Source: Veillonellales bacterium | GTDB lineage: Bacteria; Bacillota; Negativicutes; JAAYSF01 | Direction: 5' to 3' | DNA length: 54,302 nucleotides | Assembly: GCA_039680175.1 (NCBI GenBank) | Contig: JBDKTO010000111.1 | Location: 1 to 54,302 of the forward strand | Shown: piece by piece, positions 4,238-19,821 of the stretch | Layout: each line of letters opens with the position of its first letter | How positions within the stretch are numbered: position 1 is the first letter of the stretch | Position numbers and translations under genes: made by a program | The notes under the pieces: generated by a model | What the model was told of the DNA's origin: nothing | Database searches by the model: none | The model's input: the letters and a program-made list of their open reading frames with translations, nothing else

Positions 4238-5173
4238 TCAAATTTCGGCTATAATTTCGCCGGTACGAGTCAGGTCATAGCCGCCGATCCCGGAGACTTC
4301 ATTGCGGAATGAATCGGAACGCAAAATCGCCAGAAGATTTTTCATCAGCGCAGTATCCATATTTTCTTTCCGGATCACCAGGTCATATCGCTCCCGCTGC
4401 AGAGGAATAAAATCAATTTTTTTAACCTGAAGAGCGGCTTTTTCAATTCCCAATCCTACATCGGCCTCATTGCGACTGACACAGCTGGCAACCGCCAAAT
4501 GACTCATTTCTTCGTGGGTATAGCCATAAATTTCGGCGTGCTGTATTCCAAGCAGCCGCAGCTGCTCGTCCAGCAAAACCCGGGCACCGGAACCTGGCTC
4601 TCGGTTTACAAACCGAACCGAGGGAGAGATTAAATCTTGCCATGTAAGAATCCGTTTGGGATTGCCCTTTGCCACATAAAAGCCCTCCATGCGATACGCT
4701 AGATTGATGACCAACGTATGCTGGCCGGGCAGCAGCCGCCGAACGTAGGGAAGGTTATAGCTATCGGTATCGCTGTCCCAAAGATGAGTGGTAACCGCAT
4801 TGGCAGTGCCATGATATAACGCCAGCAATCCGTCAATACTGCCGATATAATTACGCAAGCAGGGCACTGCTGGCAGCGCCCTTTCCAGATGGCGGGTAAG
4901 AATGTCCAAAATGATGTCCTGACCGCAAAGAATCAATTGATCCCGCGGTAAAGTATAAGGTTCAAGCGATTTGGCAGGCTGATTTTCAGCCGCCGGGGAA
5001 TTACCCTTGGATTTATGAATATAGTTTTCCAAATCGAAAGCTTCGATCCGCATCTTGCGGCCAACACGATAGGCGGCCAGGTCACCCCGCTTAATCATTT
5101 CATACACGGTATACCGCGTAATTTTAAGGATACGAGCCACTTCTTCCGGTGTATAGGATACTGTTTCCGCCAT
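4238..5173 (-). CDS. HTH regulator with periplasmic-binding-protein-like domain (molybdate/tungstate regulator type)
   Basis: About 311 residues. An excisionase-like winged helix (SYTPEEVARILKITRYTVYE, then the RRG-type AYRVGRKMRIEAFDLENYI region) comes first. A PBP-like domain of about 210 residues follows, with NREPGSGARVLLDEQL and the repeated Glu/Gly pattern ADVGLGIEKAA. This architecture is that of one-component regulators that sense oxyanions next to mod or tup genes. It is transcribed divergently from modABC, with 10-bp repeats in between, so it probably represses or activates that operon according to molybdate. The start is uncertain: 5227 opens the same frame but has no ribosome site, whereas the paired ATGs at 5176 and 5173 follow AGGCGG. 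Confidence 0.82.
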   Translation of the reverse strand: MAETVSYTPEEVARILKITRYTVYEMIKRGDLAAYRVGRKMRIEAFDLENYIHKSKGNSPAAENQPAKSLEPYTLPRDQLILCGQDIILDILTRHLERALPAVPCLRNYIGSIDGLLALYHGTANAVTTHLWDSDTDSYNLPYVRRLLPGQHTLVINLAYRMEGFYVAKGNPKRILTWQDLISPSVRFVNREPGSGARVLLDEQLRLLGIQHAEIYGYTHEEMSHLAVASCVSRNEADVGLGIEKAALQVKKIDFIPLQRERYDLVIRKENMDTALMKNLLAILRSDSFRNEVSGIGGYDLTRTGEIIAEI

Positions 5174-5260
5174 CATCCCGCCTGCTTCCCGTTCCTCTCG
5201 GAGAATTTTATATAAATACTCTTGCATTTATATTACAACAAACTGTATAATAACACCATA

Positions 5261-5310
5261 GTAGTTACGTTTGGTTACGTTTGGTTACGTTTGGTTATGT
5301 TTGGTTTAGT
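5261..5310. repeat. 10-bp-periodic direct repeat, candidate operator between mod regulator and modABC
   Basis: Five consecutive 10-base units have the consensus TTGGTTACGT. Units 2 and 3 are exact, unit 4 has one change (TTGGTTATGT), and units 1 and 5 are more diverged (GTAGTTACGT, TTGGTTTAGT). The period equals about one helical turn, so every unit faces the same side of the DNA. It lies between the divergent regulator and modA, suggesting cooperative regulator binding. Confidence 0.6.
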
Positions 5311-5340
5311 TTAAGATATAAAGGAATAGTGAGTAATTTA

Positions 5341-5370
5341 TTGTCAAAAGTATTATTCTACCGATACAAA
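5341..5370 (+). promoter_or_regulatory. probable sigma-70-type promoter of modABC
   Basis: TTGTCA at 5341-5346 and TACAAA at 5365-5370 are separated by 18 bases, upstream of modA. The 10-bp repeats end about 30 bases before the -35 element. A short CAGTC/GACTG stem followed by six T residues (5378-5417) lies at the predicted transcript start, too close to call as an attenuator. Confidence 0.4.
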
Positions 5371-5456
5371 GTTGTGTCAGTCAATGCACGAATTACCTGC
5401 GAAGACTGGCCTTTTTTATATATAACTTTAACTTGCTATGGCAGGGAGGACTAAGA

Positions 5457-6260
5457 ATGAAAAAACATATGGTATTGTTGTGGATCAGCCTGCTGATAAC
5501 AGCAGCCTTACTCGTCACAGCCTGCGGCGGAAACAAACAGGCATCTCCGGCTCCCGCCCCTCAGACTGTCGAACTCAACGTATCGGCTGCCGTAAGCTTA
5601 AAAGACGCGCTGGCCGAAATCCAAACCAATTATCAAAAGGGCCATCCGAATGTTAAATTGGTCTTCAATCTCGGTGCGTCGGGTTCCCTGCAAAAGCAGA
5701 TCGAACAGGGAGCGCCGGCCGATATCTTCATTTCAGCCGCTCCCAAGCAGATGAATGAATTGGAGGCCAAAAATCTCCTCAATAAAGCGACCCGGAGGAA
5801 TCTGGTGGAAAACAAGCTGGTAGTCGTCGTACCTCCCGACTCTCCTTTAAACATTACGCAATACGAGGATCTGGCCAACGGCAACGTGCAGAAAATCAGC
5901 ATCGGCGAACCGGCCGTGGTACCGGCCGGCCAATATGCCCAGGAAGTGTTTCAGAAATTAGGCATCTGGGATAGTCTGAAGGATCGGCTTGTTTTGGCAA
6001 AAGACGTTCGTACGGTGCTGGCCTATGTGGAAACCGGCAATGTGGATGCCGGTGTTGTCTATAAAACCGATGCAGTATCCAGCACAAAAGTAAAGATTGC
6101 CGCCACTGCACCGGAAGGCTCTCATCAGCCCATCGTATATCCCGCGGCCTTGCTGGCCGGCAGCAAGCAGGAGCAGGCGGCCCAGGAGTTTCTGTCCTTC
6201 TTGACAACGCCGGAAAGCCGGGCTGTCTTTGAAAAAAACGGTTTTACTATGAGCAAATAA
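5457..6260 (+). CDS. modA: molybdate ABC transporter, substrate-binding lipoprotein ModA
   Basis: 267 residues. The lipoprotein signal peptide ends in the lipobox LVTAC, so the mature protein is anchored by its cysteine. Family hallmarks include ELNVSAAVSLKDALAEI near the N-terminus, NLGASGSLQKQIEQGAPADI and DVRTVLAYVETGNVDAGVVY, which line the oxyanion site. ModA delivers molybdate, and often tungstate, to ModB. The start at 5457 is set by GGGAGGACTAAG just upstream; an earlier in-frame ATG at 5433 lacks a ribosome site. It is the first gene of modABC. Its position beside nif suggests molybdenum supply for FeMo-cofactor. Confidence 0.93.
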   Translation: MKKHMVLLWISLLITAALLVTACGGNKQASPAPAPQTVELNVSAAVSLKDALAEIQTNYQKGHPNVKLVFNLGASGSLQKQIEQGAPADIFISAAPKQMNELEAKNLLNKATRRNLVENKLVVVVPPDSPLNITQYEDLANGNVQKISIGEPAVVPAGQYAQEVFQKLGIWDSLKDRLVLAKDVRTVLAYVETGNVDAGVVYKTDAVSSTKVKIAATAPEGSHQPIVYPAALLAGSKQEQAAQEFLSFLTTPESRAVFEKNGFTMSK

Positions 6261-6272
6261 GAGGAACGAACC

Positions 6273-6935
6273 ATGATCGAATGGCAGCCAATTTTTCTTT
6301 CATTAAAAGTAGCAGGCGTCTCGCTGATCTTCGTCTTTCTGTTTGGCGTGTCTTTTGCTCATCTGCTGCATAACCGGAGCTTTCCCGGAAAAACGGCTCT
6401 GGAAGCGTTTTTTACCCTGCCGCTGGTACTGCCGCCGGTAGTTACCGGGTTTCTTCTGTTAGTGCTCATCGGTAAGAACGGTCCGGTAGGACAGCTGCTG
6501 CGAACAACATTAGACGTTCAACTGGTATTTACGCCTTACGCCGCTGTTCTGGCCGCCGCTGTCGTGGCCTTCCCGCTGATGTATCAAAATGCAAAAGCAG
6601 CCTTCCAAAACGTAGACGCCACCTTGGAAGATGCAGCCCGGACACTGGGCTCCAGTGAATGGCGGGTATTTCTGACGGTTACTCTGCCGTTATCCCGCTC
6701 CGGTCTGATGTCAGGGGTTGTATTATCTTATGCCCGGGCCCTGGGAGAATTCGGCGCCACCATGATGGTCGCCGGCAACATACCCGGGAAAACCCAAACC
6801 ATTCCTCTGGCTATTTATTTCGCCTCGGAAGCCAATGACCTGACTGCTGCCGGGATTTATGTTCTGATTATCAGTGTGCTGACATTTATTCTGCTTTTCT
6901 TGGTAAATTCCTGGAACAACAGAAAAAACAGCTGA
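6273..6935 (+). CDS. modB: molybdate ABC transporter permease ModB
   Basis: 220 residues with five or six transmembrane segments. The ABC coupling (EAA) loop is visible as DATLEDAARTLGSSEWRVFL, followed by TVTLPLSRSGL. LPLVLPPVVTGF is typical of ModB. The gene starts 12 bases after modA with GAGGAACGAACC as the ribosome site, and ends shortly before modC. It forms the inner-membrane channel for molybdate. Confidence 0.93.
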   Translation: MIEWQPIFLSLKVAGVSLIFVFLFGVSFAHLLHNRSFPGKTALEAFFTLPLVLPPVVTGFLLLVLIGKNGPVGQLLRTTLDVQLVFTPYAAVLAAAVVAFPLMYQNAKAAFQNVDATLEDAARTLGSSEWRVFLTVTLPLSRSGLMSGVVLSYARALGEFGATMMVAGNIPGKTQTIPLAIYFASEANDLTAAGIYVLIISVLTFILLFLVNSWNNRKNS

Positions 6936-6946
6936 GGGGGATTTTG

Positions 6947-7594
6947 ATGCTGGCAATTGATATCAAAAAGCAACTGGCTGATTTCACGCTGGCTATTGCT
7001 TTCAAAATTGAAAATGACATCCTGGTATTATTCGGTCCCTCCGGCTGCGGCAAAACTACCACCCTGCGCTGCATTGCCGGACTGGCTCAGCCGGACGCAG
7101 GCTCTATCGTCTTAAACGAAAAGACATTTTATTCCTCCCGGGAAAATGTCTTTATTCCTCCCCGCTGCCGCAAAATCGGCTATGTTTTTCAGGAATTCGC
7201 CTTATTCCCTCATATGAACGTAGAAAAAAATGTGTATTACGGCGTAAAAAAACGTAACATCGCAACGACTCAATTGTATGAAAAAATCATGCCTGTGCTG
7301 AAAATCGATCATCTGAAACAACGGCAGGTTCAGCAGTTGTCCGGCGGTGAGAAGCAGCGGGTAGCCCTTGCCAGGGCGCTGATGGCACAGCCCCAGCTAT
7401 TACTACTGGACGAACCCCTTTGTTCCCTGGATAAGAAAACCCGTCTGGAGCTCCAGACGGAGCTGAAGCAGCTGCAGCAGGCCTGGAGCATTCCCTTTAT
7501 TTTGGTAACCCACGATATGGAAGAGGCAACCACCCTGGGAAACCAGATCCTGTTCCTGGAAAAAGGCCGGCAGCTCCCTTATCGAACTGCCTAA
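6947..7594 (+). CDS. modC: molybdate ABC transporter ATPase ModC, short form without TOBE domain
   Basis: 215 residues of ABC ATPase. Walker A is GPSGCGKTT, the signature is LSGGEKQRVALARAL, Walker B is LLLLDEPLCSLD and the switch histidine is in VTHDMEEA. Classical ModC proteins have about 350 residues because of C-terminal TOBE/molbindin repeats. Here the chain stops right after the nucleotide-binding domain, so molybdate sensing by ModC itself is missing. A separate Mop protein is encoded convergently just downstream. The ATG at 6947 has GAGGGGG six bases upstream; a TTG three bases earlier is less likely. Confidence 0.92.
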   Translation: MLAIDIKKQLADFTLAIAFKIENDILVLFGPSGCGKTTTLRCIAGLAQPDAGSIVLNEKTFYSSRENVFIPPRCRKIGYVFQEFALFPHMNVEKNVYYGVKKRNIATTQLYEKIMPVLKIDHLKQRQVQQLSGGEKQRVALARALMAQPQLLLLDEPLCSLDKKTRLELQTELKQLQQAWSIPFILVTHDMEEATTLGNQILFLEKGRQLPYRTA

Positions 7595-8155: not shown

Positions 8156-9031
8156 TTATTGCTGCAGCCCGGACGGTAATCCCATTCGGCTGCCGGTAAT
8201 CGGTTTATAAGGAAACGGCTGCCGGTTCGCCGCCCGATTGACTTCGGCGATCAGCGACGGCAAAGCGTCCGGCCGAATGCCGGTCGCTTTGCCGTAAAGC
8301 TGTTCGGCTGCCAGCACCAACTCCTCCAGCGCCGCATTTCCCGCCCGTTCTCCCATACCGGTCACCGTAGTGCTGACCAAGGTAACACCGGCGCGAACAG
8401 CCGCCAGGGCATTGGCCGCTGCCAAGCCAAAATCATTGTGGGTATGAATTTCAATGGGCAGCGAACACCGTTCCTTTAAAAAACGCATGGCAGAATAGGT
8501 TTGCAGCGGCGTTAGGCAGCCAACCGTATCGGCATACCGTATCCGCACCGCCCCCAGCTCCGCCGCCGTATCGGCTACGCGAAGAAAGAAATCCGGGTCG
8601 GCCCGGGATGCATCTTCGGCTCCTACCGATACGGTACAGCCAAATCCGGTTGCCAGCTCAATACAATCCACCAGATTATCCAGGACCCACTGCCGGGTCT
8701 TTTGTAATTTACGCTGAATATGAAGCTCGGAAACCGGCACCGAAATATGAAGATAAGAAAAGCCGCAGCGAATAGATGATAAAATATCCTTGCGTACAGC
8801 GCGGTTCCAGGAAAATACGACAGCGTTGAATTTTCCCTTCAATATATGATTAAGGGCTTCGAATTCATTGCCTCCCATAGCCGGTACACCGGCCTCAATC
8901 CAGGGAACTCCCGCTTCATCCAAAGCCCGGGCAATCCTCAGCTTTTCCTCCGGTGAAAAGGCGACTCCGGCAGCCTGCTCGCCGTCTCGCAATGTGGTAT
9001 CGATGATCTCTAGCTGATTTTGCATAAACAT
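8156..9031 (-). CDS. nifV: homocitrate synthase, catalytic (N-terminal) part of a split NifV
   Basis: 291 residues forming only the TIM-barrel of the NifV/isopropylmalate synthase family. The catalytic signature [15 protein letters not shown] begins at about residue 9. The metal-binding HTHNDFG motif and the [13 protein letters not shown] motif follow. The chain ends just after the barrel, whereas one-piece NifV has about 380 residues and continues with HESGIHADG and a C-terminal subdomain. That missing part is supplied by the gene just upstream, which this one overlaps by 22 bases. Homocitrate is the organic ligand of FeMo-cofactor. A split NifV is known in Clostridium pasteurianum (NifV-alpha and NifV-omega); I do not assign the Greek letters. 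The start has AGGAGGCAGGCGA directly upstream. Confidence 0.88.
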
Positions 9032-10131
9032 TCGCCTGCCTCCTTTGCTTTGGCCGGCATATCGGCAGAAGAAATGCTGCCATACAGCTGCTTTAATTGT
9101 TTGTCGCTGACAGGTCTTTTTTCGGTGACAGCCAGTTCCCGTACTTTTTTTACGATCCATTCGGCTTGTAACTGAGATAAGCCGATATCCCATTGAGCAA
9201 ATTTCGCTTTGATCAGAGCCGTACCGGAATGCTTTCCCACCACCAGCCGGCGGGACAGCCCTACGGTTGCCGGTGAAAATGCTTCGTACAGTTCCGGCTG
9301 TTTCAGCACCCCATCGGCGTGAATCCCCGATTCGTGAGCAAAAATGTCCGGACCGATAACCGCCTTGGTTGACGGTACTTGCAGCCCCATACATTCCAAA
9401 GCCTGGCTGCAATACGCCGCCAAATGGTTCGTGCCGCCGCCAGACATTTCCAGCAGTTGTCCGGCGGCCAAAAGAACTTCCTCGCAGGCCGGATGACCTT
9501 TGCTGCCGACCCCGGCAACAGAGACGGCAACCCGCTCCGCCCCTCCCTGAAGAGCGCCGAGACAATTGGCGGTAGCCATTCCATAATGATTATGACCATG
9601 GTATTCCAGTATCGGCCTTTCCTCCTGCCGCCCCAGGGTATTCATTGCTTCATAGGCGGCAAAAGAATCCATAATACCGGCAGCGTCACTGTAAATCAAT
9701 GATTCCACAACACCGCCCTGCAGGGATGCGGCCATATGATCCACCTCCGTCAGCGACAGCTCCGATGCATTGTTGATTTCCAGAGAAACAGTTAAGTCCA
9801 TATCTGCGGCAGCCTGCAAAACATGGATAACCTGCTGATCCACCCGGGACCCGGGAGAATGACGGTACACGACGATAATCTTCTTGAATCCCTTTTCTGC
9901 CGCTATGTGCAGTTGAGAAAGAGAAGGAGCAATACGCCCCCGCAAATAAGGGTACAGATTATTGATGACCCCGATCCAGCTGTAAGGAACCCAGTCCTGT
10001 ACCCAGACATCGTACAGATCCAAAGGCAGTTGGCGCAATATGCGTACCAGTCGCAGTAACCCAGACGGGGAAATCTTTAACCGCATTGCTTCCGATAAGG
10101 TCTGATCCAGACAAACAATCGACCGATTCAT
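9010..10131 (-). CDS. homocitrate synthase, second subunit of a split NifV (degenerate catalytic motif, intact C-terminus)
   Basis: 373 residues, full length for the family, but the N-terminal signature DTTLRDGEQ has become CLDQTLSEA, losing the catalytic arginine and neighbouring residues. The barrel is still recognisable ([18 protein letters not shown] with the HxH-type motif; [12 protein letters not shown]). The C-terminal part is well conserved ([33 protein letters not shown]). It probably pairs with the 291-residue catalytic protein encoded next, contributing the C-terminal subdomain. GGGAGGTGCAAGCGG precedes the ATG. This is not a pseudogene: the frame is open and conserved motifs persist. 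Confidence 0.82.
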
Positions 10132-10151: not shown

Positions 10152-10790
10152 CTAGACCGTTTTTGCGGCACTATTTTTATTGTGAAGCGTAATTTCATAA
10201 TGGTTGATCCCCAGCTTGACAATATCTCCGGCAAAACGACCGCTCCTCAATTCACAGTCGATCCAGGGAGGAACATGGGCACAAGTGACAGTTAAGGTGG
10301 AAAAGTCGCCTTGCCGCAAAAACGGCACTAATACCTGCTTTGATGTAACACCGCTGCTGCTTTCCTGAATATCCTTCAATGAGATGGAGTATTTTCCCTC
10401 ACCTAGACGGACCGGCGAAGGGAGTTTGATTGGGCTGGCCTCGGCCCTTTTCTGCCGCTCCTTTTCTTCTTTTGCCAAGATATAATCCAAGAAATCAACC
10501 GGGTTCCCCGAAATTTCCCAAATACTGCACTGGGCTTTTTCCAGTTCATAATAGGGTAAGCCGGTAATCTCCCGACCGGCGACAATCTTGCAGTCCGCCA
10601 GAAATCCGATGATTTCGGTCATGCAGCGGCGAAGTCCTTTCAGGCCCTGGGACTTGTCGAAGCGGCACTCCATCCGGCGGGATTCCCGCCAGCGTCCCTG
10701 CTGCCGCTGATAAACCACCAATTGGCAATTTTCCTGCAGCGAAGTCGTTTCGCTGTTTTTATCCAGAACGGCTGCTGCTTCCCGTCCCAT
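10152..10790 (-). CDS. AnfO-like nitrogenase accessory protein
   Basis: 212 residues. The pattern DCKIVAGREITGLPYYELEK, WEISGNPVDFLDYIL, then TSKQVLVPFLRQGDFSTLTV and CAHVPPWIDCEL is that of the AnfO family, first named from Fe-only nitrogenase clusters. Its biochemical role is not settled. Here it lies in a molybdenum nif operon, between the ferredoxin and homocitrate synthase genes, with no anfG or second nitrogenase in view. A role in cofactor assembly or nitrogenase protection shared with Mo-nitrogenase is possible. GGGGGAGTCAGT precedes the ATG. Confidence 0.8.
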   Translation of the reverse strand: MGREAAAVLDKNSETTSLQENCQLVVYQRQQGRWRESRRMECRFDKSQGLKGLRRCMTEIIGFLADCKIVAGREITGLPYYELEKAQCSIWEISGNPVDFLDYILAKEEKERQKRAEASPIKLPSPVRLGEGKYSISLKDIQESSSGVTSKQVLVPFLRQGDFSTLTVTCAHVPPWIDCELRSGRFAGDIVKLGINHYEITLHNKNSAAKTV

Positions 10791-10811: not shown

Positions 10812-11120
10812 TTAGATTTCCAGGCGGGCTACAACCTTGCCGCCTTCAATGTGCTCATCCATAATTTCGGCCACATCATCCGGTGTCACATGACCATACC
10901 AGACATTGTCCGGATAAATCACCACAATCGGACCCTGATCACAAAGGCCAAAACAGCCCGTATTGTTGATAAAGACTTCTCCTTCCAGTTCCCGCTCCTG
11001 GATTTCTTCCATAAAGGACGTAACAACGTCGACTCCCTGTTTCGAATGGCAGAAGCCTTTTTGTTGTCCGTTCACCCGTGAACTGGTACAGACAAAAATA
11101 TGATGCTGCGGTTTATTCAT
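10812..11120 (-). CDS. thioredoxin-fold [2Fe-2S] ferredoxin
   Basis: 102 residues with cysteines at 11, 24, 56 and 60 (FVCTSS, KGFCHSK, NTGCFGLCDQGP). This is the same ligand set and length as the [2Fe-2S] ferredoxin of Clostridium pasteurianum, whose close relative is FeSI (Shethna protein I) of Azotobacter. Such proteins are linked to nitrogenase, either as electron carriers or for conformational protection. The gene overlaps nifB by 4 bases (ATGA), so the two are translationally coupled. Confidence 0.92.
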   Translation of the reverse strand: MNKPQHHIFVCTSSRVNGQQKGFCHSKQGVDVVTSFMEEIQERELEGEVFINNTGCFGLCDQGPIVVIYPDNVWYGHVTPDDVAEIMDEHIEGGKVVARLEI

Positions 11121-12445: not shown

Positions 12446-13819
12446 TTACGTTGCCTTCCGGTAAAAAGTATCGTACATCCGGCTGCGGTAGGGTTTCAGC
12501 TTACTGTCCAGCAGCGTATTGGTCACCCGATCCAAAAAAGCCATGGTCCCCGTATAGCCTACCGACAGCAGCCGGTGCCCTCCCATACGGTCAAGGATGG
12601 GAAAACCGATACGGATCAAAGGAATTCCGGCCTTTTCTTCCAAATAACGCCCGGTGGAGTCCCCGATGGCCACATTGGCTTCTGCCGCTTCTCCGTATTT
12701 ACGGATTACTGCAAAATCTGTTCCCGACAAAATCTGTACCGGTTCCGGTGCAGCCTCAATATAAGGCTGCAGCAGCTCCGCCAGTTTTGCCGTCCGGCTG
12801 CCTGTCGCCACCACCACCGGATGAATGCCATTTTCCAGACAAGTCCTGGTTAACGCATACACCAGTTCCGGTTCGCCAAACAAGACGGCCCTCCCCAGAA
12901 AGTTATATTTATGGGAATCGATCATTCCGTCCAGCAGCCGCCCCCGTTCCTGCTGCAGACTGTCCGGCAAACCCTTACCGGTGACTTCCTGCAGTACTTC
13001 CATAAACCGGTCAGTATTTTCCAAACCAATCGGCAACGGCAGATTGTAAAGCGGAACACCGAAGGTCTCTGCCAAATATTTACCCGGCGACAAAGCATCC
13101 TCCACCGTCATTCCCAGCTGCAAAGTGGCCGGTGCTCCCGACATTTTCCGGATATCCTCGATTTTTGTCCCTTCCGGCGTCATTTTCCGATAAGGCCGCT
13201 GAAAAGGACGGTCCATGGTATCGGAAAAATCGGGGAACAAGGTATATTTTATCTCCATCAGGTTTAAAATCCGTTTGATCTCCCGAATATCAGCCGGGCT
13301 GATATTCGAAACAATCAAATTGATTTTATTGTGTTTTTCACTTTTTTTTGTCAGGCAGGTCAGAATCCGCCTGGCGGTAAAAAAGTAGCCTTCAGCCTGA
13401 GTCCCCCCGTAACCGGGAGTAGGCGCCGTGACCAAGAAAATTTCTTCCCCGTTTTTTTCCTGCAGATATTCTTCCGCAAAGCGGCCAATATCTTCCCCGA
13501 TGGTTTCGGCCAGACAAGTCGTCAAAATGCCGATCACTCCCGGATTGTAAACTTTCCGTACATTATCCAGCGCTTGTTTTAAGTTTTTTTCACCGCCGTA
13601 AATGGTCCCTTTTTCATTTAATGAAGAAGAGCCCACATCCACCGGTTCATTAAAATGTTCGGAAATATGACGGCGCATATAGGTACTGCACCCCTGAGAG
13701 CCGTGCAAAACCACCATGGTATTTTCAATTCCTTTTAATGCCAGGATTCCTCCCATGGGCATACACATGTTGCAGGGGTTCTCATTCACATTCCGGCAGG
13801 CCGCCTTCTTCTCTTTCAT
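12446..13819 (-). CDS. nifN: NifN, FeMo-cofactor scaffold beta subunit
   Basis: 457 residues, NifK-like. Motifs include NPCNMCMPMGGILALKGIEN, LHGSQGCSTYMRRHI and TTCLAETIGEDIG; the last is the third cysteine site of the family. With NifE it forms the scaffold on which NifB-co matures into FeMo-cofactor. The ATG overlaps the nifE stop by 4 bases. It is separate from nifB, unlike the NifN-B fusion of C. pasteurianum. Confidence 0.94.
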   Translation of the reverse strand: MKEKKAACRNVNENPCNMCMPMGGILALKGIENTMVVLHGSQGCSTYMRRHISEHFNEPVDVGSSSLNEKGTIYGGEKNLKQALDNVRKVYNPGVIGILTTCLAETIGEDIGRFAEEYLQEKNGEEIFLVTAPTPGYGGTQAEGYFFTARRILTCLTKKSEKHNKINLIVSNISPADIREIKRILNLMEIKYTLFPDFSDTMDRPFQRPYRKMTPEGTKIEDIRKMSGAPATLQLGMTVEDALSPGKYLAETFGVPLYNLPLPIGLENTDRFMEVLQEVTGKGLPDSLQQERGRLLDGMIDSHKYNFLGRAVLFGEPELVYALTRTCLENGIHPVVVATGSRTAKLAELLQPYIEAAPEPVQILSGTDFAVIRKYGEAAEANVAIGDSTGRYLEEKAGIPLIRIGFPILDRMGGHRLLSVGYTGTMAFLDRVTNTLLDSKLKPYRSRMYDTFYRKAT

Positions 13820-15168
13820 ACAACATCCCCCCTGTCATGATCCGGCAGGTAATTCCATACCGGCGAGCATAACGTGGAATAAACTTCCCTGGCAAAATTA
13901 ACGGCTCCCACGTAACCGCTTAATGGATGCTTGCGGTCGTGATTGTGATCAATAAAGGCAATTCCCAGCTTGTAAGCCAGCGGCCGTTCTTTGACTCCGC
14001 CTACCAGCAGATTGGCCCCCTGCTTCGTCATAAACCGTTCCAGTTCCGCCGGGTTGGCGTCATCCAAGATGACCGTGCCGTCGGCGACCAGACTGTTGAT
14101 GGTCTCATATTCTTCCTTCCGTCCGGTCTGCGTGCCGATCATGACGACTTCCATTCCCAGCTCGCGGAACTGTTTAATCAACGATATGGCTTTAAATCCG
14201 CCGCCCACATAGACAGCCGCTTTCTTCCCGGCGAACTTCCGCCGGTATTTGTCAATGACCGGTTGAATCCGGGCGCTTTCTCTGGCGATAAGAATCTCCG
14301 CCTTGCGGGCGGCTTCCTCGTTGCCAAGGGCTGCGGCAATCTGCCGCAGGGAATCCGCCGTATCCTGAAGTCCCAAAAAGGAAACGCGGATGTAAGGAAT
14401 GTGATACAATTCTTCCATTTTACCGGCCAGATAATTCGTCGAGCCGGCACACTGCATGATGTTGAGCGATGCCTGGGTGGCTGTTTTCAGCTTTTCACTG
14501 GAAGAGTCGCCGGTAAAGACAACATTCAGTTCAATGCCCATTTCCCGTAGATAGCTTTCAATGATCCACGCTTCCCCTGCCAGATTATAATCGCCTAAAT
14601 AATTAATACTGTTGGCTTTTTTGATTCCAGTCGGCTGAAGCAGCTGCAAGATCGCGTCGCAGGCCGCCCGGTAACCGGCGGATTTGTTGCCGATGAAACC
14701 GCTGGACTGTACCGGAATGACCTCGATTTCGTGTTTTAAGGCTGCCGCTTTACAAATGGCGTTCAAATCATCACCGATGACGCCGACAATACAGGTGGAA
14801 TAGACGAAAATCAGTTTCGGCTGATACTTACCCACCAGTTCGTCAATTGCCGCCGTCAGCTTTTTACCGCCGCCAAAAATTACGTCTTCCTCTTGTAAAT
14901 CGGTGGAGAAAGCGTTGCGGTAAAGCTCCGAGCCGCTGCTCAGGCTGCCCCGGATATCCCAGGTATAGCTGGCGCAGCCAATCGGTCCGTGGACCAAATG
15001 GGCCGCATCCGTAATCGGATTCAGTACCACCCTGGCCCCGCAATACACGCAGGCCCGCTGGCTGACGCAGCCGGCGATGCTGTCGGCGTCGCATTTGATC
15101 GGCTGCTTTTGTCTGCCTTTTGTCGTAATAAACTCTTCCCTGTCGGATACAACCAGTGCCTCCCCCAT
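13816..15168 (-). CDS. nifE: NifE, FeMo-cofactor scaffold alpha subunit
   Basis: 450 residues, NifD-like. The cluster-binding region reads RACVYCGARVVLNPI, then HGPIGCASYTWDIRG. AFSTDLQEEDVIFGGGKKL and YSTCIVGVIGDDL are the matching NifD-family blocks. It forms an alpha2beta2 complex with NifN that processes the cofactor precursor before insertion into NifDK. AGAGGTGAGAAGCGA precedes the ATG, and nifK ends 45 bases upstream. Confidence 0.94.
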   Translation of the reverse strand: MGEALVVSDREEFITTKGRQKQPIKCDADSIAGCVSQRACVYCGARVVLNPITDAAHLVHGPIGCASYTWDIRGSLSSGSELYRNAFSTDLQEEDVIFGGGKKLTAAIDELVGKYQPKLIFVYSTCIVGVIGDDLNAICKAAALKHEIEVIPVQSSGFIGNKSAGYRAACDAILQLLQPTGIKKANSINYLGDYNLAGEAWIIESYLREMGIELNVVFTGDSSSEKLKTATQASLNIMQCAGSTNYLAGKMEELYHIPYIRVSFLGLQDTADSLRQIAAALGNEEAARKAEILIARESARIQPVIDKYRRKFAGKKAAVYVGGGFKAISLIKQFRELGMEVVMIGTQTGRKEEYETINSLVADGTVILDDANPAELERFMTKQGANLLVGGVKERPLAYKLGIAFIDHNHDRKHPLSGYVGAVNFAREVYSTLCSPVWNYLPDHDRGDVV

Positions 15169-15213: not shown

Positions 15214-16575
15214 TTATCGAACGACTTCCAAATCTTCTTCCGCGCATTCCCGGTCTTCCTTGTCCAGCATGGCGTTGCACATTTGTTCCAATAAAAACAT
15301 CGCGCCTTTGTAGCCCACCACCGGATTATAGTTGTGTCCATAACGATCCATAACCGGAAACCCGAAGCGGACAAAGGGAATGTCTTCTGCCCTGGCGATG
15401 AATTTGCCATAGGTATTGGAAATTAAAAGATCAACGTTTTCATTTTTGATCCATTGATGGACATCAAAGAAATCTTTTTCCGCTTTTACAATGCCTTCTA
15501 AACCAGCCTCCTGCATCATGGCCGTGATTTCTCTTGCAAATGCCGATCCCGGAGTACCGGTAACCACATATTGGGGGATCATGCCCAGAGCAATAATGAA
15601 CTGGCTTAAAGCAATCATCTCGTCAGGATCACCGACCAGGGCAGCTTTTCTTCCCTGGAAATATTGCTGACTGTCAATCATCAGATCCACCAGTTGGCCC
15701 CGTTCCTCTTCCAGTTCCGCCGGTATCTCCTTCCCGGTTTGTTTGGCCAAAGACATTAAAAGTTCATCCGTGGCATCGATACCGATGGGAGTCTTCAGCG
15801 TAATAAAGGGAACTTTACACTTTTTCTCCAGTTCTTTCGCTCCCATTTCGGAGGCATAGCTCCCCAAAGCAACGGTCAACGCGGCATTGCCGGCATCAAC
15901 AATCTCCTCAATTTTTGTCCCACCCTTCGGATACATTTTATATTTCCCGGTGTTCGGGGCATCCAAAACCCCGCTGGTATCGGGAAGCATGGTATAAGGG
16001 ATGCCCATTACCTTGAATATCCGCTTGATTTCCCGCATATCCGCCGGTCCGACAAAGCCCGGTATGATATTAAAATTCCCGTTGGGAACGCCGCTGTTTA
16101 GCGAAAGGTAGTTGATAAAACCTTTGACCATGCTGGCAAAACCGGTAATATGGGAACCCTGATAGCTGGGCGTATTAGCGTGAATGACCAGTTTGCCTTC
16201 TGGTATTTCCATTTCCCGGATATAGGTAGGTAGGTCATCGCCAATGGTTTCGGATAAACAGGTGGTATGAACGGCAATAATATCCGGATCATACAGGGCA
16301 AAAATATTTTTAACCGCTGTCTTTATATTGGCACCGCCGCCAAACACGCTGGCGCCTTCCGTAAAGGAACTGGAGGATGCCATGGCCGGTTCTTTAAAGT
16401 GCCGGGAAAGCACGGTTCGATGATAGGAGCAGCAACCTTGGGAGCCATGGCTGTGCGGCAGACAGTTGTGAACGCCAAGGGCAGCGTACATGGCTCCTAC
16501 CGGTTGACAGGTTTTGGCCGGATTGATCCGAAGCGCTTTTCGCTCGACAATTTCTTTTGGCGTTGCATCCAGCAT
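15214..16575 (-). CDS. nifK: Mo-nitrogenase MoFe protein beta chain NifK
   Basis: 453 residues, the short clostridial form; Azotobacter NifK has about 520 residues because of a longer N-terminus. P-cluster cysteine regions are visible in KTCQPVGAMYAALG, SHGSQGCCSYHRTVL and HTTCLSETIGDDL. ANTPSYQGSH corresponds to the serine segment near the P-cluster. The start ATG shares one base with the nifD stop (TAATG), so translation is coupled. It is the structural partner of NifD and carries half of the P-cluster. Confidence 0.96.
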   Translation of the reverse strand: MLDATPKEIVERKALRINPAKTCQPVGAMYAALGVHNCLPHSHGSQGCCSYHRTVLSRHFKEPAMASSSSFTEGASVFGGGANIKTAVKNIFALYDPDIIAVHTTCLSETIGDDLPTYIREMEIPEGKLVIHANTPSYQGSHITGFASMVKGFINYLSLNSGVPNGNFNIIPGFVGPADMREIKRIFKVMGIPYTMLPDTSGVLDAPNTGKYKMYPKGGTKIEEIVDAGNAALTVALGSYASEMGAKELEKKCKVPFITLKTPIGIDATDELLMSLAKQTGKEIPAELEEERGQLVDLMIDSQQYFQGRKAALVGDPDEMIALSQFIIALGMIPQYVVTGTPGSAFAREITAMMQEAGLEGIVKAEKDFFDVHQWIKNENVDLLISNTYGKFIARAEDIPFVRFGFPVMDRYGHNYNPVVGYKGAMFLLEQMCNAMLDKEDRECAEEDLEVVR

Positions 16576-18613: not shown

Positions 18614-18940
18614 TTACAATGCTTCCTTGCCGACACTGATCGTATAGGCAGCCTCAACCGGAGTGACAAATATTTTTCCGTCGCCGAAGGCGCCTTTTTC
18701 CCCAGTCTTGGCATTTTTTATGATAATTCTTACCACATCGTCTTTATCTTCGTCTTCTACCACCAGCATCAATAATTCTTTGGGAATTTCATCATAGTGG
18801 ACTGTGCCCACCTGAAGGCCGCGCTGCTTTCCCCGTCCGACTACATCATATTTTGTGACCGCCGGAAAACCTGCGTCAGATAATTCGGATAGAACAATCC
18901 CCGCTTTTTCCGGTCTGACAATGGCTTTTATCATTAACAT
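18614..18940 (-). CDS. nifI1: PII-like nitrogen regulator NifI1
   Basis: 108 residues of the GlnB/PII family: MIKAIVRPEKAGIVLSEL at the start, YDVVGRGKQRGLQVG in the T-loop region and DGKIFVTPVEAAYTISVGKE at the C-terminus. It is paired with nifI2 between nifH and nifD and should take part in rapid post-translational switch-off by ammonium. CGGAGGCGATTGT precedes the ATG. Confidence 0.93.
   Translation of the reverse strand: MLMIKAIVRPEKAGIVLSELSDAGFPAVTKYDVVGRGKQRGLQVGTVHYDEIPKELLMLVVEDEDKDDVVRIIIKNAKTGEKGAFGDGKIFVTPVEAAYTISVGKEAL

Positions 18941-18975: not shown

Positions 18976-19821
<846 letters not shown>

Follow-up and report, generated by a model that had tools for sequence, protein, structure and literature searches.

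AnfO in the molybdenum nitrogenase operon of a Veillonellales bacterium: a candidate FeMo-co carrier

AnfO is named and annotated after Fe-only nitrogenase. In the DNA studied here (the window, 54,302 nucleotides from contig JBDKTO010000111.1 of a Veillonellales bacterium, assembly GCA_039680175.1), an anfO gene nevertheless sits inside an operon for molybdenum nitrogenase, which raises the question of what the protein does there. Work on Azotobacter vinelandii AnfO from 2022 and 2025 supplies a mechanism: the protein excludes FeV-co and FeMo-co from the Fe-only nitrogenase (PMC9310841, PMC11938142). Its N-domain binds the apo-FeFe protein, its C-domain binds FeMo-co and the full-length protein also FeV-co, His203 is essential whereas Cys201 is dispensable, and the authors of the 2025 paper liken AnfO to NafY (PMC11938142). 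AnfO inside a nif cluster is listed in one genome paper (PMC4148979), and the legend to a nif cluster figure names anfO (PMC11206085); the parts of these sources consulted do not comment on function. A study or biochemistry of nif-linked AnfO was not found in the literature searched, which lay mostly outside subscription journals. As a conserved operon gene with a FeMo-co-binding homologue, nif-linked AnfO is a direct candidate for the route of FeMo-co to NifDK where no NafY is known.

The operon is a co-directional run, nifH-I1-I2-D-K-E-N-B-fdx-anfO-nifV, with a transporter set beside it.

18976..19797 (-), NifH, over the TIGR01287 cut-off
18614..18940 (-), NifI1 (PII), PF00543
18213..18599 (-), NifI2 (PII), PF00543
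16575..18200 (-), NifD (Mo type), over the TIGR01282 cut-off, ligand motifs
15214..16575 (-), NifK, over the TIGR01286 cut-off
13816..15168 (-), NifE, over the TIGR01283 cut-off
12446..13819 (-), NifN, PF00148, called NifN because it follows NifE, under the cut-offs of TIGR01285 and TIGR01286
11117..12433 (-), NifB with C-terminal NifX-like domain, TIGR01290, PF02579, motifs
10812..11120 (-), thioredoxin-like [2Fe-2S] ferredoxin of the clostridial type, NF041612, 173 bits, over cut-off
10152..10790 (-), AnfO (PF09582), nif-linked, 212 aa, open reading frame and profile matches
9010..10131 (-), NifV part with C-terminal homocitrate synthase domain, PF22617, partial HMGL
8156..about 9040, start inferred (-), NifV, HMGL (catalytic barrel) part, PF00682, TIGR02660 positions 3-277
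5433..7594 (+), three-gene ABC transporter (binding protein, permease, ATPase), PF13531, PF00528, PF00005

A reading made from the sequence alone had recognised an AnfO homologue within a molybdenum nitrogenase operon, located between a [2Fe-2S] ferredoxin gene and nifV, and profile searches bear this out. NifD, NifK, NifE, NifB and NifH pass the cut-offs of curated Mo-type models, and anfO is separated by 21 bp from the ferredoxin gene and by 20 bp from nifV. Its reading frame opens with ATG, a short distance 3' of a good ribosome-binding sequence, AGGGGGAG. The product matches PF09582 (AnfO_nitrog) with 209.6 bits (cut-off 30.3, E 3.5e-62), residues 6-192 covering profile positions 3-188 of 190. 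Against the equivalog model TIGR02940 ('Fe-only nitrogenase accessory protein AnfO') it scores 107.4, under the cut-off of 129.15, so that the match is to the AnfO family and not to the strict Fe-only equivalog. Across 33 family members, some of them anf-linked, the best TIGR02940 E value is 5.3e-36, by our estimate about 125 bits, and the cut-off thus fails to split nif from anf members here. NifD carries the motifs CHRSINYI and HSYDYTGPYAGF, which hold the Cys and His ligands of FeMo-co, and has 541 aa against 466 model positions, consistent with the clostridial insertion; both features agree with the sequence-only reading. NifV is split into two frames (window 8156-10131), the barrel and the C-terminal part, a pair that recurs in many relatives and resembles nifV-omega/alpha of Clostridium pasteurianum.

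The absence of anfG and of an alternative nitrogenase, noted for the window, extends to the genome as searched for AnfG and NifE. AnfG/VnfG (PF03139) has no match in the 4.08 Mb of the assembly (121 contigs), in which AnfO is single-copy, and a loose NifE search returns only NifE and NifD as strong matches, whereas in AnfG-positive genomes it mostly returns one further strong match at the place of AnfD. An anfHDGK cluster elsewhere in the genome, sought via AnfG, was thus not found, and the operon in which AnfO lies is nif.

The linkage of AnfO to nif extends well beyond this genome. In a class sample of 300 genomes, with NifE called at E <= 1e-80, AnfO is present in 59, NifE in 58 and AnfG/VnfG in 22. 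AnfO accompanies NifE in 57 of the 58 NifE genomes, the sole exception being G019, and 35 of these 57 have no AnfG. The two AnfO genomes without NifE are G020, with a frameshifted remnant, and G142, with AnfO on a 4-kb contig next to NifB and NifN. The remnant (L105:1743-2316) is perhaps a relic from a lost nif cluster. AnfO and NifE start within 10 kb of each other on the same contig in 55 class genomes; in G001 and G122 they are on different contigs, with AnfO adjoining other nif genes. AnfO is found in all 22 AnfG genomes of the class. In 18 the sole copy belongs to the nif cluster or adjoins it, and only in G039, G048, G187 and G229 does an additional copy lie close to AnfG. The anf clusters of AnfG-positive class genomes (L108-L123) often have their own NifB and NifV, and no AnfO. 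In this class, AnfO in a Mo-nitrogenase operon is the rule rather than an oddity.

The phylum sample (398 genomes, AnfO and NifE called by model cut-offs) is less uniform. AnfO occurs in 31 genomes (28 over cut-off) and NifE over cut-off in 40; both are found in 25, NifE only in 15 and AnfO only in 3, and AnfG is present in 3 of 41 genomes tested. Since 15 of the 40 NifE genomes lack AnfO, Mo-nitrogenase does not universally require it. With both samples pooled, AnfO and NifE occur together in 80 genomes, 56 of which have no AnfG. The proposed survey of anfO next to nif versus anf genes therefore has a clear outcome in the sampled group: AnfO is associated more often with nif than with anf.

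The AnfO protein of the window can be divided into two domains and a linker.

10467..10790 (-), N-domain, residues 1-108, fold like NifX and the NafY core, NifX ligand His missing, predicted docking domain (hhalign, VIA)
10413..10466 (-), variable linker, residues 109-126 (alignment conservation)
10176..10412 (-), C-domain, residues 127-205, predicted cofactor-binding (PF09582 half match, conservation, homology to A. vinelandii AnfO)
10263..10283 (-), C170-A-H172-V-P-P-W176 motif, His172 being the predicted FeMo-co ligand (alignment)

The mean majority frequency in the linker is 0.33, compared with 0.49-0.71 in most other parts, and the stretch 109-129 varies between 17 and 35 residues among relatives. 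The C-terminal half alone matches PF09582 positions 122-188 (E 2.4e-22) and is predicted to bind the cofactor by homology to the A. vinelandii C-domain (PMC11938142). Its motif, CxHxPPWL, contains a histidine that hardly varies. Of 62 alignment rows from AnfG-negative genomes, 3 are partial and the 59 that cover the position all keep His172, as do all 23 nif-linked rows from AnfG-positive genomes and all 5 anf-linked rows; the only covering row without it is the vnf-linked L100, which has Glu. Cys170 is replaced in three rows, as would be expected if only the His were needed (PMC11938142). Placed like the A. vinelandii ligand in a C-x-H motif, His172 probably corresponds to His203, judging by this spacing and the distance from the C-terminus. 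Both the NafY core (1p90) and a number of standalone NifX proteins end in PPPWL, which resembles the PPWL of AnfO over a short stretch; this may or may not represent a shared docking element. The genome encodes five further NifX-like (PF02579) domains outside the nif operon, none with PPW.

With hhalign, the N-domain and the NifX-like domain of NifB can be aligned along 106 columns (E 7.5e-5, probability 62%, compared with at most 1.8% for five control families), and a NifX profile finds three AnfO proteins with E 0.002-0.009. The loop with the ligand His of NifX (His35 in A. vinelandii NifX) falls into a gap of the alignment. In window AnfO, PF02579 has no match at E 0.001, and the NifX-like core with ligand His that characterises NafY is not present. 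A structure model built from a two-row alignment is of low confidence (pLDDT 61). With this model, the best Foldseek E value is 0.031, NifX (9ian) ranking fifth. In VIA, the N-domain resembles a wide range of RNase H-like folds (RuvC Z 6.9, NifX 9ian 5.8, NafY core 1p90 5.6), and the closest structure to the C-domain is the NUDT6 N-domain (Z 7.5); none of these Z values reaches the level counted as clear. The AnfO profile gave no credible match among the sequences of solved structures (best E 0.055). DIMCO_N (PF16844), the N-terminal domain of NafY, gave no match in 21 genomes, but none in the 14 controls either, and it also missed a Serratia protein encoded where NifY is expected, so that its silence carries no information on NafY or NifY. 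No plasmid-borne AnfO was found with the window protein and an anf-linked AnfO as queries.

In view of these data, we propose that the nif-dedicated branch of AnfO acts as a FeMo-co carrier and insertion chaperone for NifDK, doing a NafY-like job with a different build, and assign this reading a probability of about 0.5. The NifX-like N-domain would dock on cofactor-free NifDK, possibly also on NifEN, the C-domain on its flexible tether would take completed FeMo-co from NifEN via His172 of CxHxPPW, and AnfO would then hand the cofactor to apo-NifD and depart. The only nitrogenase being of the Mo type, AnfO in this organism cannot serve to exclude FeMo-co from an Fe-only enzyme. As the ligand His is invariant in AnfG-negative genomes and anfO is kept in the operon, delivery of FeMo-co to NifDK is the simplest reading. 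It is further supported by the co-occurrence with NifE (57 of 58 in the class, 25 of 40 in the phylum sample), mostly in genomes without AnfG, by the NifX-like N-domain without the NifX His, by a nif linkage that is exclusive in 18 of 22 AnfG genomes, and by the separate clade, the single NifB fusion and the position of AnfO directly after NifN-like genes in L069 and L031, all described below. The comparison with NafY in the 2025 paper (PMC11938142) points the same way.

The window protein resembles A. vinelandii AnfO in Pfam family, in its two domains and linker, in the C-x-H of the C-domain and in the NifX-like N-domain. It differs in being nif-linked, in a Mo-only genome and below the TIGR02940 cut-off; its partner would be apo-NifDK, and the outcome probably delivery rather than trapping or exclusion. 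The likeness to NafY, the FeMo-co carrier of A. vinelandii, lies in the proposed job and in the combination of a docking domain with a His-based cofactor-binding domain. The roles appear to be exchanged, however: the NifX-like domain of NafY is its cofactor-binding part (His121), whereas in AnfO, which has no PF02579 match, the NifX-like domain is predicted to dock and a different C-domain to bind. Several observations speak against a carrier. A. vinelandii AnfO prevents insertion of FeMo-co, the opposite of what a carrier would do; AnfO is missing from 15 of the 40 phylum-sample genomes with NifE; and many nif clusters, including that of the window, retain the NifX-like domain of NifB, so that a carrier may already exist. 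Moreover, His203 and His172 are matched by spacing and position, the pLDDT of the model is 61, and the fusion comes from one genome.

A less probable alternative, but the best of those considered, is that AnfO on apo-NifDK acts as a gatekeeper, blocking premature or wrong cofactors such as NifB-co or cofactors without Mo or with another metal. This would be a direct transfer of the known function of A. vinelandii AnfO, and the same anatomy would suffice. However, the known C-domain binds FeMo-co itself and would rob NifDK of the right cofactor, and most carriers (56 of 80) have no second isozyme.

It is slightly less plausible still that AnfO takes NifB-co from NifB to NifEN. This is the task of NifX, which passes NifB-co to NifEN and whose C-terminal helix is anchored on NifE (PMC13128457). 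Gene order and fold can be cited in favour. The regions fetched contain 88 AnfO frames with 150 residues or more, pooled over nif, anf and vnf linkage. Their immediate same-strand upstream neighbour encodes ferredoxin in 48 and NifB in 20 cases, so that NifB, or the ferredoxin gene after NifB, precedes AnfO in 68 of 88. A divergent nifH is upstream in 9 and a NifV frame follows in 51 of the 88; in L069 and L031, AnfO comes straight after NifN-like genes, with neither NifB nor ferredoxin between. In one genome (G481, L176:7977-9518), a single 513-aa frame joins the radical-SAM part of NifB to AnfO, which thus occupies the place where NifB proteins often have their NifX-like domain, a likeness in position that adds to that of the fold. 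The other four AnfO proteins of the same family are encoded by separate genes, and a 2017 survey of 289 NifB sequences describes, in the parts consulted, three architectures, none with AnfO (PMC5715403). A standalone NifX is present in 3 of 80 AnfO-positive nif loci but in 8 of 11 AnfO-negative ones, the loci being sorted by hand: of seven AnfO-positive loci flagged, two had NifB fragments and two AnfO itself, and the 14 AnfO-negative loci were reduced by the vnf locus L124 and by L127 and L186, where AnfO is on another contig. Lineage confounds this contrast, as the three loci that have a standalone NifX as well as AnfO belong to the ~40%-NifD type; a Fisher test on it, computed with 3 of 78, is not relied on. 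Against the NifB-co route, NifB often retains its own NifX-like domain, also in the window, and the N-domain of AnfO lacks the ligand His of NifX, from which AnfO further differs by its extra C-domain. N-domain-only copies of AnfO occur as well (L177:8406-9511 and L069:3754-4152), one of which has a full-length AnfO in tandem.

The sequence-only reading had suggested a broader role in cofactor or electron handling. A role beyond Fe-only nitrogenase stands, and its cofactor half is favoured by the conserved ligand His, the NifX-like N-domain, the NifB fusion and the homology to a FeMo-co-binding protein. The electron half is not favoured. That AnfO is an electron-transfer partner of the adjacent [2Fe-2S] ferredoxin is improbable: the two genes are neighbours in 48 of 88 cases, but the upstream neighbour is another gene in the remaining 40 (NifB in 20), the ferredoxin is found without AnfO in L189, L191 and L194, and no redox domain profile matches the window AnfO.

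A maximum-likelihood tree was built from 88 of the 92 AnfO proteins collected, the four shortest being left out. A branch (97/95; 98% of bootstrap trees) separates the five anf-linked proteins from the nif-linked ones, among which are ten encoded divergently from nifH or away from the main run. The tree has no outside root and hence does not indicate whether the use in nif or in anf is older. On the nif side, the vnf-linked protein of L100 (G048) stands out by its long branch; its gene (L100:7445-8083, with Glu at the ligand position) ends a vnf-like cluster of H, I1, I2, D, K, two E/N-like genes, B and V with an AnfG/VnfG match. The family name, the separate anf clade and A. vinelandii genetics (PMC9310841) suggest a fidelity guard for an alternative nitrogenase, but this is the least likely reading for the window protein, as neither its genome nor 56 of the 80 genomes with AnfO and NifE have AnfG, and the AnfG genomes of the class keep AnfO with nif, in 18 of 22 solely there. 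Barring a second nitrogenase without AnfG, the absence of AnfG rules out a Fe-only guard in this genome.

More tentatively than for the window protein itself, the carrier reading may be extended: nif-dedicated AnfO could serve as FeMo-co carrier and insertase in a large part of the anaerobic Bacillota, the NifX fold having been put to new use in docking while a C-domain of another kind holds the cofactor. On this view the A. vinelandii protein, the Fe-only guard, would represent a specialised branch, and in the genomes sampled the family would more commonly serve Mo-nitrogenase. If true, this changes the meaning of a family annotated after Fe-only nitrogenase, and adds a small extra part for nitrogenase engineering in new hosts. 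In any case the name AnfO can mislead, as Fe-only parts may be read into Mo-only genomes.

By its type, the ABC transporter beside the operon can be read as ModABC for molybdate. A regulator with HTH_17 and PBP_like domains is encoded divergently from it (window 4238-7594), and in L176 a comparable transporter set lies between the fused AnfO and nifV.
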